Of a stretch of DNA of 64,000 nucleotides, positions 22,385 to 32,099 are shown piece by piece; position 1 is the stretch's first letter; every line of letters begins with the position of its first letter. The notes below the pieces were generated by a model that was not told the origin of the DNA, ran no database searches, and saw nothing but the letters and a program-made list of their open reading frames with translations. The stretch spans positions 6,058,001-6,122,000 of the forward strand of contig NC_015914.1 of assembly GCF_000222485.1 (NCBI RefSeq). The letters are read 5' to 3'. The position numbers and the translations under genes are program-made. This DNA is from Cyclobacterium marinum DSM 745. GTDB taxonomy: Bacteria > Bacteroidota > Bacteroidia > Cytophagales > Cyclobacteriaceae.

Positions 22385-22741
22385 AGTATATGATTTAAAA
22401 TTTTAAATAGTAAAATGCTGATGGCAACGTGAACACAATTTCAGCAGGTACATTTTTAATTTACAAAAATTCAAGTAATTGTTGACACGCTACTTTATAT
22501 TCCTTTGTAATAAAACACCTTGGCTTCTCTAATGCGCTGAAACATGCATTATAATGGTGCTAACGGATAATGAGTTATGATAATAATTTGTACTGTAATT
22601 ATAATAATCAAAACCAGGGCGGGTTGAGTTAGCCCAAAGGAACTATTACCCTTTTTGAGAGACTGAAATTGAATATTTGAAACTAATGTCCTTGAATATG
22701 AAAGTGATAAAGCAAAACACTTCTTTTTTTTCGTCCTACTA
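22385..22741. other. Intergenic region without recognised feature
   Basis: AT-rich DNA between the VIT gene and the tRNA-Asp promoter. A 68-codon minus-strand frame has no family resemblance and atypical composition, so it is not called. Confidence 0.4.
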
Positions 22742-22772
22742 TTGTATAAAAACAAACATTCTTCTACCTTTG
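22742..22772 (+). promoter_or_regulatory. Promoter of tRNA-Asp and the repeat array
   Basis: TTG (22742-22744), a 20-base spacer and TACCTTTG (22765-22772) give a near-consensus Bacteroidota promoter (TTTG-N19-TAnnTTTG). The predicted start is about 30 bases before the first tRNA-Asp. Confidence 0.6.
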
Positions 22773-22809
22773 TACCACTTCAAACGAGGAGTAATAAAGA
22801 AACAAAAAA

Positions 22810-22883
22810 GGAGTGGTAGTTCAGCTGGTTAGAATGCCTGCCTGTCACGCAGGAGGTCGCGGGTTCGAGTCCCGTCCATTCCG
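22810..22883 (+). tRNA. tRNA-Asp (GTC), copy 1
   Basis: A full cloverleaf is present: acceptor GGAGTGG/CCATTCC, D-arm GTTC...GAAT, anticodon stem CCTGC/GCAGG with loop CTGTCAC (anticodon GTC at 22844-22846), variable loop, T-arm CGGG-TTCGAGT-CCCG and G discriminator, then CA. It is identical to the second copy at 23592 and begins the tRNA/repeat region. Confidence 0.97.
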
Positions 22884-22887
22884 CACA

Positions 22888-22915
22888 AAAGCCTTGGTTT
22901 TCCAAGGCTTTTTTT
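22888..22915 (+). terminator. Terminator after tRNA-Asp copy 1
   Basis: A ten-base stem AAAGCCTTGG/CCAAGGCTTT with a T run. The same sequence follows the second tRNA-Asp. Confidence 0.85.
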
Positions 22916-22959
22916 GACTTCTTAATATTTATCACTTTTAAAGGTGAGAAATTAACAAA

Positions 22960-23591
22960 ATAGTGGTAGTTCAGCCGGTTAGAATGTCCCGATTTATCGG
23001 GAAGGTCGCTGGATTGAAACTTAAGAAGTAAAAATATTGGAGTGGTAGTTCAGTTGATTAGAATGTCCCGACTTATCGGGAAGGTCGCTGGATCGAAACT
23101 AAAGAAGTAAAAATATTGGAGTGGTAGTTCAGTTGGTTAGAATGTCCCGACTTATCGGGAAGGTCGCTGGATCGAAACTTAAGAATTAAAAATATTGGAG
23201 TGGTAGTTCAGCTGGTTAGAATGTCCCGACTTATCGGGAAGGTCGCTGGATCGAATCTTAAGAAGTAAAAATATTGGATTGGTAGTTCAGTTGAGTAGAA
23301 TGTCCCGACTTATCGGGAAGGTCGCTGGATCGAAACTTAAGAAGTAAAAATATTGGAGTGGTAGTTCAGTTGATTAGAATGTCCCGACTTATCGGGAAGG
23401 TCGCTGGATCGAAACTAAAGAAGTAAAAATATTGGAGTGGTAGTTCAGTTGGTTAGAATGTCCCGACTTATCGGGAAGGTCGCTGGATCGAATCTTAAGA
23501 AGTAAAAATATTGGATTGGTAGTTCAGTTGATTAGAATGTCCCGACTTATCGGGAAGGTCGCTGGATCGAAACTTAAGAAGTAAAAATATT
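22960..23591 (+). repeat. Eight tandem 79-bp tRNA-Asp-derived units
   Basis: Units start at 22960, 23039, 23118, 23197, 23276, 23355, 23434 and 23513; adding 79 again gives 23592, the exact first base of tRNA-Asp copy 2. Each unit begins like tRNA-Asp (GGAGTGGTAGTTCAG..TTAGAATG, about 27 bases nearly identical). It then has the perfect hairpin TCCCGACTTATCGGGA (TTTA loop in unit 1) in place of the anticodon arm, then AGGTCGC as in the tRNA. After that come a degenerate T-arm (TGGATCGAAAC) and a unique tail (TTAAGAAGTAAAAATATT). The 3' acceptor strand is lost, so no unit can form a normal tRNA. There are no unique spacers, ORFs or internal terminators. Confidence 0.95.
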
Positions 23592-23665
23592 GGAGTGGTA
23601 GTTCAGCTGGTTAGAATGCCTGCCTGTCACGCAGGAGGTCGCGGGTTCGAGTCCCGTCCATTCCG
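23592..23665 (+). tRNA. tRNA-Asp (GTC), copy 2
   Basis: Identical to copy 1 from acceptor to discriminator, with anticodon GTC. It is the ninth element of the 79-bp phase, directly joined to the repeat tail at its 5' end, so its own promoter is absent. Its transcript must come through the array or from a promoter within a repeat. Confidence 0.97.
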
Positions 23666-23669
23666 CATA

Positions 23670-23697
23670 AAAGCCTTGGTTTTCCAAGGCTTTTTTT
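23670..23697 (+). terminator. Terminator after tRNA-Asp copy 2
   Basis: Same ten-base stem and T run as after copy 1, showing that tRNA and terminator were duplicated together. Confidence 0.85.
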
Positions 23698-23763
23698 GTT
23701 GGTTCTTTTTTTAAAAGAATTCCTTAACACACCACTACATTAACAATTACTTTTAGGCTAAAA

Positions 23764-23814
23764 AACTTCCTGAAGGAGAATAACAAATATAAAATACCTG
23801 AAAATCTCCTTCAG
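23764..23814 (-). terminator. katE terminator
   Basis: A ten-base stem CTGAAGGAGA (23770-23779) with TCTCCTTCAG (23805-23814). On the minus strand it is followed by GAAGTTTTTT. It lies 37 bases past the catalase stop. Confidence 0.55.
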
Positions 23815-30707: not shown

Positions 30708-32099
30708 CAATGTCGTTTAGTTAAGGTTTATAAGTTATAAAATTACTGGGTCTGGCAGTATACCTTTTAATTCTAGGAACTGACCTGTTGGGCCGTACTA
30801 TTTCAAGTTGAAGCAACAGTTTAAAAGCATAATCAGATATTTTTCCAATGATTTTGTCCATTCCTTGTTTGAGTTGATCAATTATAGATTTGGTTTTACG
30901 ATACGCTTGGGTTCTGTTGATCTGATAAGTGTTTTTCCGTTTTTTATTACAGTAGTCAATCCCTTTTTTGGTAAGTGTTTTACTGAGGATGTTGCTCAAG
31001 TTGGCCCTGAGAATGATTCTATTAAAATCCTGGAGAACGGCCCTGGCCGTCTTTCCGCTCAGGTTTTCAAGTTCCGCCCTGGTTTTGAGTAGCTTGAAAG
31101 ACTCTTCAACAGGCCATCTTTTCCTGTAAAGCTCACGTATTTCCTTGACAGGGTACTTCCTATGGTCAACTAGGTTGGTTATCAATATATGGTCTTCTCC
31201 TGATGCAATCGGTACCCGTACGAGCCTTAATTTGAGTGCCTCAGTAGGAATATTCCTTTCCCTACACCTGTTTAAGGCCTCTTTGGAAGGGGACACCTCT
31301 ATGATCTGCTGTTTTTGGGTAGATGCTAAAAATGCTTTTGCATGTTTCCATCTGTTTGCCTTTACCCTGATGACAAAGGATTTCTGTTGCTGAACCAATG
31401 TGGACATGAGCCAAAAGGCCGCATAAGCCCTATCCATTATAAGCAGGTCGCCCTGCCCTAGACAGGGAAGATGACTTTCACACAGAGCAAGTTCACTTGT
31501 CCTGTAATGTTTGATCTTGGCATCTATACTGATTTGGTTGAGTACATCGTAGGCTTGGGAAACACGGGCTAACACTACTTTTCTCCCGTTTTCAGTCCGG
31601 GTTTCGAAATGGCCAAAACCTTTTGCCAATTCTTTGCTGTAAGGAAGCTGCAAAGTACTGCCGTCGATACCTATAAGCCGAAAACCTTTCCATTTACGAA
31701 TATGGCTGGCTTTTTTATAATAAAAAGAACATTGTTGTTCATTGAGCCATGTAAACACCTTGGGGTTTAGTTTGGATCGTTGCTGACTGAATGCTCCTTT
31801 GGAATAGCTGACCGATTTGTCGGAAAAAAAATTATCAAGTTCTTGCTGAACACTCGATTTACCCAGGCCCAACATGAAGTAGATAAGATCTGTAAAACCC
31901 AAACACCGCTGACGAACAAACGCTGTGTTAGTCGTACGGAACCTATCGCGTGTTAATCCATTTTCTATATTGTTTTTTAATAGTTTTAAAAAGTCCTTCG
32001 AAAAGGAAAAGGACTTGATTGTTGTTAGATTATTTTAAAAAAACTACGCTCCCTTTTCTTTCCTAAAAATAATAAAATTTCCTTAACTAAACGACATTG
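30708..32099 (-). mobile_element. IS4-family insertion sequence, copy 1 (1392 bp, defective)
   Basis: Perfect 19-bp terminal inverted repeats (CAATGTCGTTTAGTTAAGG at 30708-30726 and its complement at 32081-32099), bordered by 10-bp direct repeats. It carries a DDE transposase on the minus strand. It is nearly identical to copy 2 (1393 bp), differing by one deleted base in the transposase and a few substitutions (for example near 30774 and 30830). Confidence 0.95.
30721..32099 (-). pseudogene. IS4-family transposase, frameshifted
   Basis: Relative to copy 2, one C is missing at about 32036-32037. The minus strand therefore reads seven T directly followed by AAAA, and the N-terminal frame runs into a TAA within a few codons (...RSFFKII stop). 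The remaining open frame (30721-31902, 393 residues from a TTG) keeps all catalytic motifs: GIDGSTLQLPYSKELAKGFG (first Asp), LLIMDRAYAAFWLM (second Asp) and YRKRWPVEESFKLLK (IS4 signature Y-x2-R-x3-E-x6-K). The loss of the N-terminal DNA-binding part should inactivate it, unless slippage on the T run restores the frame. Confidence 0.85.

Follow-up and report, generated by a model that had tools for sequence, protein, structure and literature searches.

We find that an array of tRNA-derived repeats in the chromosome of Cyclobacterium marinum DSM 745 (G000; complete genome, 6.22 Mb) probably represents the multiplied left-hand scar of a selfish element, which splits a tRNA gene and encodes a GIY-YIG nuclease whose gene is absent at this locus. 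We put the probability of this reading at roughly 0.7. The array is located in a stretch of 64,000 nucleotides (the window, corresponding to G000:C1:6058001-6122000), and its coordinates are given below as positions of the window; genomes, contigs and loci carry our G, C and L numbers. In relatives, the element is set into its host gene as follows: the host promoter and the 5' half of the host tRNA come first, then a palindrome, a shortened T-arm with a leader, a complete tRNA with its terminator, a small GIY-YIG gene and a second palindrome, and last the host 3' half with the host terminator.

The window contains two tRNA-Asp(gtc) genes of the same sequence (copy 1, 22810..22884; copy 2, 23592..23666; both located by tRNA calling and scoring 67.9 bits each against the Rfam tRNA model), which bracket eight phased 79-bp units at 22960-23591. 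All features of the array are on the plus strand. The units start at 22960 + 79(n-1), and the end of unit 8 at 23591 abuts tRNA copy 2. Tandem Repeats Finder returned a period of 79 with 8.3 copies, 94% matches, 0% indels and a score of 1188, and a search for the unit palindrome allowing up to two mismatches gave nine matches at eight sites, all within the array, where shuffled sequences lead us to expect 0.05. The array pattern is far beyond chance, and coordinates, repeat finder and shuffles agree with an earlier note on this DNA, which had described eight exactly phased units between two tRNA-Asp genes. Unit 1 (22960..23038, palindrome TCCCGATTTATCGGGA at 22987-23002) has degenerate first bases (ATA) and begins ATAGTGG, and it is here that the GGAGTGG start ascribed to every unit fails. 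It is followed by unit 2 (23039..23117, palindrome 23066-23081), unit 3 (23118..23196, palindrome 23145-23160), unit 4 (23197..23275, palindrome 23224-23239), whose 5' half is identical to tRNA-Asp, and unit 5 (23276..23354, palindrome 23303-23318). Unit 6 (23355..23433, palindrome 23382-23397) is identical to unit 2, unit 7 (23434..23512, palindrome 23461-23476) differs from unit 4 by one base, and unit 8 (23513..23591, palindrome 23540-23555) by one base from unit 5.

Each unit consists of the 5' half of tRNA-Asp (27 nt), a 16-nt palindrome (TCCCGAn4TCGGGA), the sequence AGGTC, a degraded remnant of the T-arm's first half and an A-rich tail, which ends in AAAAATATT and is directly followed by the next 5' half. 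The palindrome occupies the exact place of the 17-nt anticodon stem-loop of tRNA-Asp. The units had been said to lack the acceptor strand and the T-arm: the 3' acceptor strand and the 3' T-stem strand are indeed gone, but the units keep AGGTC, the variable loop, together with the first T-arm half. Neither ARAGORN nor Rfam calls the units as tRNA genes, and only the two intact tRNA-Asp genes are recognized, in line with the earlier view that the units are not tRNAs. Unit 1 has a CRISPR-like ending (GGATTGAAAC; Rfam CRISPR-DR9, E 3.9), which we rejected as one among many weak matches, present in this unit only.

Identical intrinsic terminators (AAAAGCCTTGGTTTTCCAAGGCTTTTTTT) are found behind both tRNA-Asp copies (22887..22915 and 23669..23697). 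A terminator similar in build to the first directly precedes a GIY-YIG gene at the tRNA-Asp loci of relatives; no GIY-YIG gene was found behind the second. A promoter-like site, TTG-N20-TACCTTTG, which we take to resemble the Bacteroidota promoter consensus, is located at 22742..22772, before copy 1 only. Our scan of positions 22401-23800 returned no further site of the TTG-N17-23-TANNTTTG type, and none inside the array, confirming that the two genes have identical terminators while only the first has a promoter. The segment between the first terminator and unit 1 (22915-22960) is AT-rich and by eye forms a partly imperfect inverted repeat; an AT-rich inverted repeat also precedes the first unit in L006 and L007, with a sequence that differs between these species.

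The two sides of the element can be seen by comparing alleles with and without it at a tRNA-Val locus. In G003, a single intact tRNA with CTGCCTTACAAGCAG between its halves precedes its terminator. In G006, the same two halves are separated by 459 bp, which take the place of the 15-nt anticodon stem-loop. The insert has TCCGATTACCATCGGA at either end and between them, in this order, the remnant of a T-arm with a leader, a complete tRNA-Val, a terminator, a GIY-YIG open reading frame (ORF) and a D-arm remnant. The flanks of the two loci share 93% identity over 391 bp on the right and 70% over ∼1000 bp on the left; since terminators like the one behind the G003 empty site are also found at other places in the genus, we base synteny on the longer flank. 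These sequences show a single bracketed element, whose two sides are formed by the 5'-half unit and the 3'-half unit and to which the intact tRNA between them belongs; this is our key result. Together, the loci show the putative element to lie inside the tRNA gene (in the anticodon arm at tRNA-Asp, -Val, -Pro and -Asn), with a part of the gene replaced by a palindrome on each side. The earlier note had listed a tRNA-seeded mobile element among several options, and the comparison with relatives backs this option in substance. A derivative is found at the tRNA-Asn locus on G009:C17 (L223:518-704), where the element terminator and only the first nuclease codons are followed by host flank, indicating a deletion in which the array was lost.

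The nuclease genes themselves were located in eight genomes. PF01541 returned 62 matches, from which we left out 17 in long frames (UvrC-like and others). Among the remaining 45 short-frame matches, 15 start 36-52 bp behind a tRNA gene (Asp, Val, Pro, Asn, Met, Thr); the other 30 comprise 13 later array copies, six located behind a tRNA fragment or pseudo-copy, ten unlinked genes and one that was not fetched. The parts found behind tRNAs are a terminator, a small GIY-YIG gene, a palindrome and a tRNA 3' half, often in tandem. At tRNA-Asp, a short GIY-YIG ORF directly follows the terminator in G008, G012 and G031, and in G012 this ORF is followed by a pseudo-tRNA with the palindrome and an intact 3' half. 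G000 itself has such segments at other tRNAs: tandem repeats of 350 bp (6.5 copies) at tRNA-Val and of 392 bp (five copies) at tRNA-Asn, and a single nuclease copy with a 5'-half unit upstream at tRNA-Pro. A third tandem amplification of a tRNA-nuclease segment has a 457-bp period; the GIY-YIG repeat is located near tRNA-Met in L279 (G165:C9:904800-911800), and its 10.2 copies with 99% matches point to a recent amplification.

All four nucleases that we searched (from relatives and from the other G000 tRNA loci) match PF01541 above cut-off, and Tyr-6, Tyr-17, Gly-19, Arg-27, His-31 and Glu-63, which we take to be the GIY-YIG catalytic residues, are invariant in ten out of ten aligned rows. The nearest solved structure to the Val-type nuclease by sequence is the UPF0213 protein 1zg2 (E 1.8e-5); to our knowledge, single-domain GIY-YIG proteins of the UPF0213 type have no link to tRNAs. 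Ratios of non-synonymous to synonymous substitution rates (dN/dS) of 0.15, 0.10 and 0.12, for one Val, one Pro and one Met pair, respectively, show the signature of purifying selection on these three nuclease pairs. Thirty-three of the 45 short-frame proteins were placed in a tree, on which the seven labels (six tRNA types plus 'unlinked') require six changes. This is the minimum, and none of 200 label shuffles reached it, although near-copies help this fit. The tree shows nuclease clades that follow tRNA identity: the Val, Asp and Met groups cover two or three genera, and the Met group unites initiator-type and elongator-type genes; the 'unlinked' rows alone take three changes. Small related GIY-YIG genes without an adjoining tRNA are present in L189, L165, L190, L193, L196, L183, L181 and L184. 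Several of these tRNA-free genes are located, by eye, among other repeats and may represent a second class of such elements. Rfam searches of 20 loci with an unlinked nuclease found no RNA gene other than tRNA, which was present in six loci.

To define how far the arrangement extends, we built a profile from ten tRNA-linked nucleases and ran it on 119 genomes of the class Bacteroidia, of which 91 have matches. We analyzed 69 top-ranked loci from 54 genomes (29 chosen automatically and 40 picked by hand down the ranking, up to three per genome). In 40 of these loci, a same-strand tRNA ends no more than 130 bp before the nuclease gene, a proportion that is no random rate because the profile was built on tRNA-linked nucleases and the loci are top-ranked. 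Thirteen tRNA types are represented (Val, Arg, Ala, Met, Thr, Asp, Pro, Ser, Phe, Asn, Glu, Leu and His), and none of 30 Y1-transposase control loci has a tRNA that close upstream in either strand reading. Three loci are at contig edges (L229, L235 and L255), two with a tRNA 44 and 66 bp upstream and the third without one; L233 has only 90 bp of upstream sequence, and L239 and L278 are one and the same array. The junctions of 38 of the 40 tRNA-linked loci were tested. A displaced copy of part of the tRNA 3' portion is found within 260 bp behind the ORF in 25 of the 38 loci, and nine have a copy of the tRNA 5' part upstream. Perfect hairpins of at least 6 bp are located at the junction in 16 of the 25 3' copies (strictly after the stop codon) and in seven of the nine 5' copies. 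A laxer 51-nt junction window, which extends back into the ORF, contains such a hairpin in 21 of the 25 3' copies; shuffles predict 1.4, and among control windows 16 of 75 have one. By eye, the split lies in the anticodon arm for Val, Asn, Asp, Pro(ggg), Arg, Ala, Met and Leu (L294), in the D-arm region for Thr (L194), Pro(cgg) and the left side of Leu (L266), and in the T-arm for Phe, Thr (L244), Ser, His and Glu.

We next consider the units themselves. Conservation in relatives, to which the earlier note had attached weight, is found: the pattern formed by the D-arm end and the palindrome is present in all 12 genomes of the genus with 1-8 matches each (counts that take in right-hand copies and, in several draft genomes, contigs that break at the array), and a control pattern has none. 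In a class sample, the unit core pattern occurs in 13 of 395 genomes, G000 included. Seven of the 12 others were inspected, and tRNA-Asp units are present in G184, G365 and G284 and not in the other four. Algoriphagus litoralis has an exact match to the unit core pattern, in the order promoter, unit, tRNA-Asp, unit, tRNA-Asp and terminator. Units alternate with many tRNA-Asp copies in G365, where a long tRNA-Asp cluster (L095, G365:C12) contains variant copies between the units with the anticodon changed from GTC to GCC and altered D- and T-arms. G284, whose family lies outside the order, has two 105-bp units in tandem at a contig end, with a different acceptor sequence. Units of the 5'-half design are also located upstream of tRNA-Pro, -Val, -Asn and -Arg; before tRNA-Pro, we find a unit of the window's type once in G000, also in G010, and twice in G002. 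A composite form is seen at tRNA-Asp in L173 / L010 (G006:C22, ∼622300-623100), which contains 139-bp units with a second palindrome in the D-arm as well as 140-bp right-hand units without a nuclease.

That the array instead yields a functional RNA, either a decoy for tRNA-processing or tRNA-modifying enzymes or a small RNA precursor, is suggested by the presence of the unit core throughout the genus, by the invariant palindrome of units 2-8 and by the predicted fold of unit 2 (-17.1 kcal/mol). This fold is unexceptional, however (z about -1.5, two units folded), and the number of pattern matches per genome varies from 1 to 8. The array contains no promoter-like site of the type sought, and units of the same design at other tRNAs come with a nuclease. 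The earlier note had suspected an RNA function because the D-arm half seemed nearly unchanged while the rest decayed. This premise fails: the tRNA-like 5' half is the most variable region of units 2-8, with a pairwise diversity of 0.060, compared with 0.028 for the T-arm remnant, 0.040 for the tail and 0.000 for the palindrome; the values for all eight units are 0.090, 0.040, 0.036 and 0.016, in this order. We consider the RNA explanation very unlikely. A dedicated RNA function is not needed for the array as the scar of a tRNA-splitting element, although processing of a read-through RNA from the array is possible.

In the genus and in G012, the stem of the palindrome is tied to the tRNA and the loop is variable: the stems are TCCCGA/TCGGGA for Asp, TCCGAT/ATCGGA for Val, TCCCGG/CCGGGA for Asn (two genomes) and TCCTGAC/GTCAGGA for Pro (three genomes), with TCCCGAC/GTCGGGA in one tRNA-Pro unit of G002. 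We left out of this comparison several rows with 5-bp stems, some of which are chance matches that lie outside tRNA units, in the window and in L163, L179 and L195, while others are variants of intact tRNAs from G365. When the palindromes on both sides of a locus were compared for eight hand-picked loci, two pairs were identical and six differed mainly in the loop; Arg L237 also has one compensated stem pair between its two sides. The tRNA-Pro of G002 and the tRNA-Asp of G012 (same stem, different loop) were not part of this set. Because compensated stems may arise by neutral template switching at palindromes, stem pairing alone is no proof of selection.

Palindromes of this kind could also be REP elements placed in tRNA copies by a REP-associated Y1 transposase (RAYT). 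Indeed, the pattern TCCCGA-N-TCGGGA occurs 19 times in G000 (eight of them in the window array) and 64 times in G012, compared with three and one for a reversed-pattern control, and Y1_Tnp genes are present in 12 of 12 genomes. Yet none of the 30 Y1_Tnp loci that we fetched (of 52) has this pattern within ∼1500 bp, which led us to reject a RAYT origin of the palindrome; a near form (CCCCGA..TCGGGA) is located ∼900 bp away in L108, and many Y1_Tnp genes are flanked by other palindromes. The tRNA palindromes moreover vary between loci, and mostly replace tRNA bases rather than being added. REP palindromes are reported to carry a GTAG or CGTC tag at one end (PMC3733652). We do not find this tag in the window units, which read AATG-palindrome-AGGT, and we give the REP explanation next to no chance. 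The 64 palindromes in G012 are scattered and often have the form TCCCGATAGCTATCGGGA, a type that also splits tRNA-Leu and tRNA-Thr copies in other genomes.

Another account would dispense with a mobile element: tRNA genes were duplicated locally in tandem, palindromic insertions killed the surplus copies, GIY-YIG genes settled behind terminators by chance, and the array is the neutral expansion of one dead copy. The identity of units 2 and 6 and the one-base differences between units 5 and 8 and units 4 and 7 imply a recent duplication of a block of units, as in unequal recombination, and fit this account, as do the tandem tRNA-Asp copies that alternate with units in G365 and two tRNA-Val genes in a row in G004, where a nuclease is located neither between nor directly behind them. 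In G165, a left unit contains a copy of the host leader, which local duplication explains as well as insertion does. Four findings are not predicted by this account: nucleases directly behind 13 tRNA types, palindromes bracketing both sides at Val, Arg, Pro, Asn and Asp, nuclease clades that track tRNA identity, and stems common to both sides of a locus (in the eight hand-picked loci). We regard it as unlikely. The neutral slippage proposed in the earlier note is partly borne out: neutral unequal recombination very likely multiplied the units, but leaves the same design at other tRNAs unexplained.

Several observations besides the G165 leader copy weigh against the array being the scar of a tRNA-splitting nuclease element. 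None of the 16 GIY-YIG matches in G000 is located at the tRNA-Asp locus, and as the window has no nuclease gene, the link to a nuclease rests on relatives. The alleles with and without the element at one locus amount to one strict pair (tRNA-Val, G003/G006). For tRNA-Pro, no syntenic site without the element was found; the tRNA-Asn flank is present in G000, G010 and G009 (with weak short matches in G001 and G020), again with no empty site. The inner tRNA-Val of G006 is identical to the empty-site tRNA of G003, and a nuclease that cuts the tRNA itself would consequently cut the element too. Left and right repeat numbers are unequal (tRNA-Asn of G000 has zero left and five right units), so that recursive insertion alone cannot build the arrays. 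With regard to the nucleases, the Asn pair G000/G010 has a dN/dS of 0.95 on five changes, the Val pair G006/G012 is saturated between genera, and the Pro clade has weak support (72/63), both support limits being passed by the Asn and Asp clades only. The stems, finally, follow the tRNA only loosely across the class (TCCGAT, TCCCGAT and TCCCGAC for Val; TCCCGTT for Asn in G165), the left units at tRNA-Pro of G002 have two different stems next to a decayed right palindrome, and Leu L266 contains two palindromes in different arms.

For the element mechanism, we propose that the inner complete tRNA replaces the function of the split gene and would be transcribed from the host promoter. The nuclease may break DNA at its tRNA locus, by analogy with phage SegB, and repair of the break by homologous recombination would copy the element into empty alleles and multiply its parts. 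Such repair-driven multiplication would let repeats grow on both sides, as 5' half plus palindrome on the left (the 79-bp units of the window) and as palindrome, 3' half, terminator and nuclease on the right. To escape self-cutting, the enzyme could act on the palindrome or on sequence that is lost from the filled allele. In the window, left units would have been multiplied by unequal recombination between phased repeats, and the array would now grow and shrink by recombination; since the tRNA-Asp nuclease is missing and only left units are present, the array would be a relic or a non-autonomous derivative. The cell would then depend on the tRNA borne by the parasite, and hence the element could not be cleanly lost.

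On balance, we lean toward the broader view that Bacteroidia hold a class of very small elements in tRNA genes, each of which splits one tRNA species and contains a complete replacement tRNA, a dedicated GIY-YIG nuclease of ∼85 amino acids and bounding palindromes, the stem being tied to the tRNA within a lineage and perhaps serving as a recognition or processing site for the nuclease; the window array would be a nuclease-less left tandem derivative. Among the open-access papers that our searches listed, none describes, in its title or the opening of its abstract, GIY-YIG genes located within or downstream of tRNA genes on chromosomes of Bacteroidota. If our view is correct, widespread chromosomal parasites have passed largely unnoticed as tRNA pseudogenes and 'GIY-YIG family' ORFs. 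It would explain the arrays of tRNA half-genes in Bacteroidia and provide natural empty and filled alleles, and it would define a minimal system (one ∼85-residue nuclease, one palindrome and one tRNA) for homing, essential-gene addiction and break-driven tandem amplification, a chromosomal counterpart to the tRNA gene amplification recently described for phage SegB.

SegB of phages T4/T6 is a free-standing GIY-YIG homing endonuclease adjoining tRNA genes (PMC13096335; PMC2988022). The recent report states that it cuts within tRNA genes and drives tandem amplification of tRNA-segB segments, which the authors explain by recombination of the tRNA 5' region with the segB 3' region, and that free-standing GIY-YIG enzymes cut donor alleles poorly (PMC13096335). 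The Bacteroidia elements share with SegB a GIY-YIG nuclease beside tRNA genes and tandem tRNA-nuclease segments; they differ in residing in chromosomes rather than phage genomes, in encoding proteins of ∼80-100 amino acids and in having each nuclease clade tied to one tRNA. Split tRNA halves, bounding palindromes and a carried replacement tRNA are features of the Bacteroidia elements and are absent from the SegB accounts as available. Phage SegB is the closest known system, and by this analogy the elements would work like SegB-type homing; the catalytic domain, tRNA adjacency, empty and filled alleles and tandem amplification are all found in relatives, whereas the window lacks a nuclease.

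Other systems are less similar. In the 178-bp repeats of E. coli tyrT (rtT RNA), copies of the tRNA-Tyr 3' end follow the gene. There, as here, tandem repeats beside a tRNA gene contain a piece of that tRNA, but the window units contain the 5' half, are located before the gene and have a palindrome for the anticodon arm. RtT is absent among the Rfam matches of the window and, up to E 5, of positions 22700-23750, assuming that the RtT model was present. Integrative elements and islands with att sites in tRNA genes restore gene function with element DNA and leave a displaced 3' piece. The Bacteroidia elements likewise interrupt a tRNA, would restore its function by their own DNA and displace a 3' piece; in contrast, they have palindromes at both junctions and carry a whole tRNA, and 459 bp leave no room for an integrase gene. 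No such gene is present in the G006 insert, which holds the tRNA and one GIY-YIG ORF. Group I introns in tRNA anticodon loops can have GIY-YIG homing endonucleases and thus share the targeted region and the nuclease type, but the Bacteroidia element contains a complete tRNA and replaces the arm. Three of the four nucleases searched match a group I intron endonuclease model weakly, below cut-off, and no group I intron passed the Rfam gathering threshold in the window or in L163-L168, which contain the G000 elements of tRNA-Val, -Asn and -Pro.

Elsewhere in the window, an ORF on the minus strand (30721-31902) resembles an IS4-type transposase by eye. The theme of interrupted gene copies recurs in G000 at an rRNA gene: in L166:3484-4168 (G000:C1 ∼2243983-2244667), a 5S rRNA gene is followed by two more copies of the 5S 3' end and terminator at 269-bp spacing. 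The 5S copy is interrupted by GCCTGTCCCGACTCATCGGGA, with no ORF seen, and this palindrome also occurs at G000:C1:3210195, 3210464 and 3330857.

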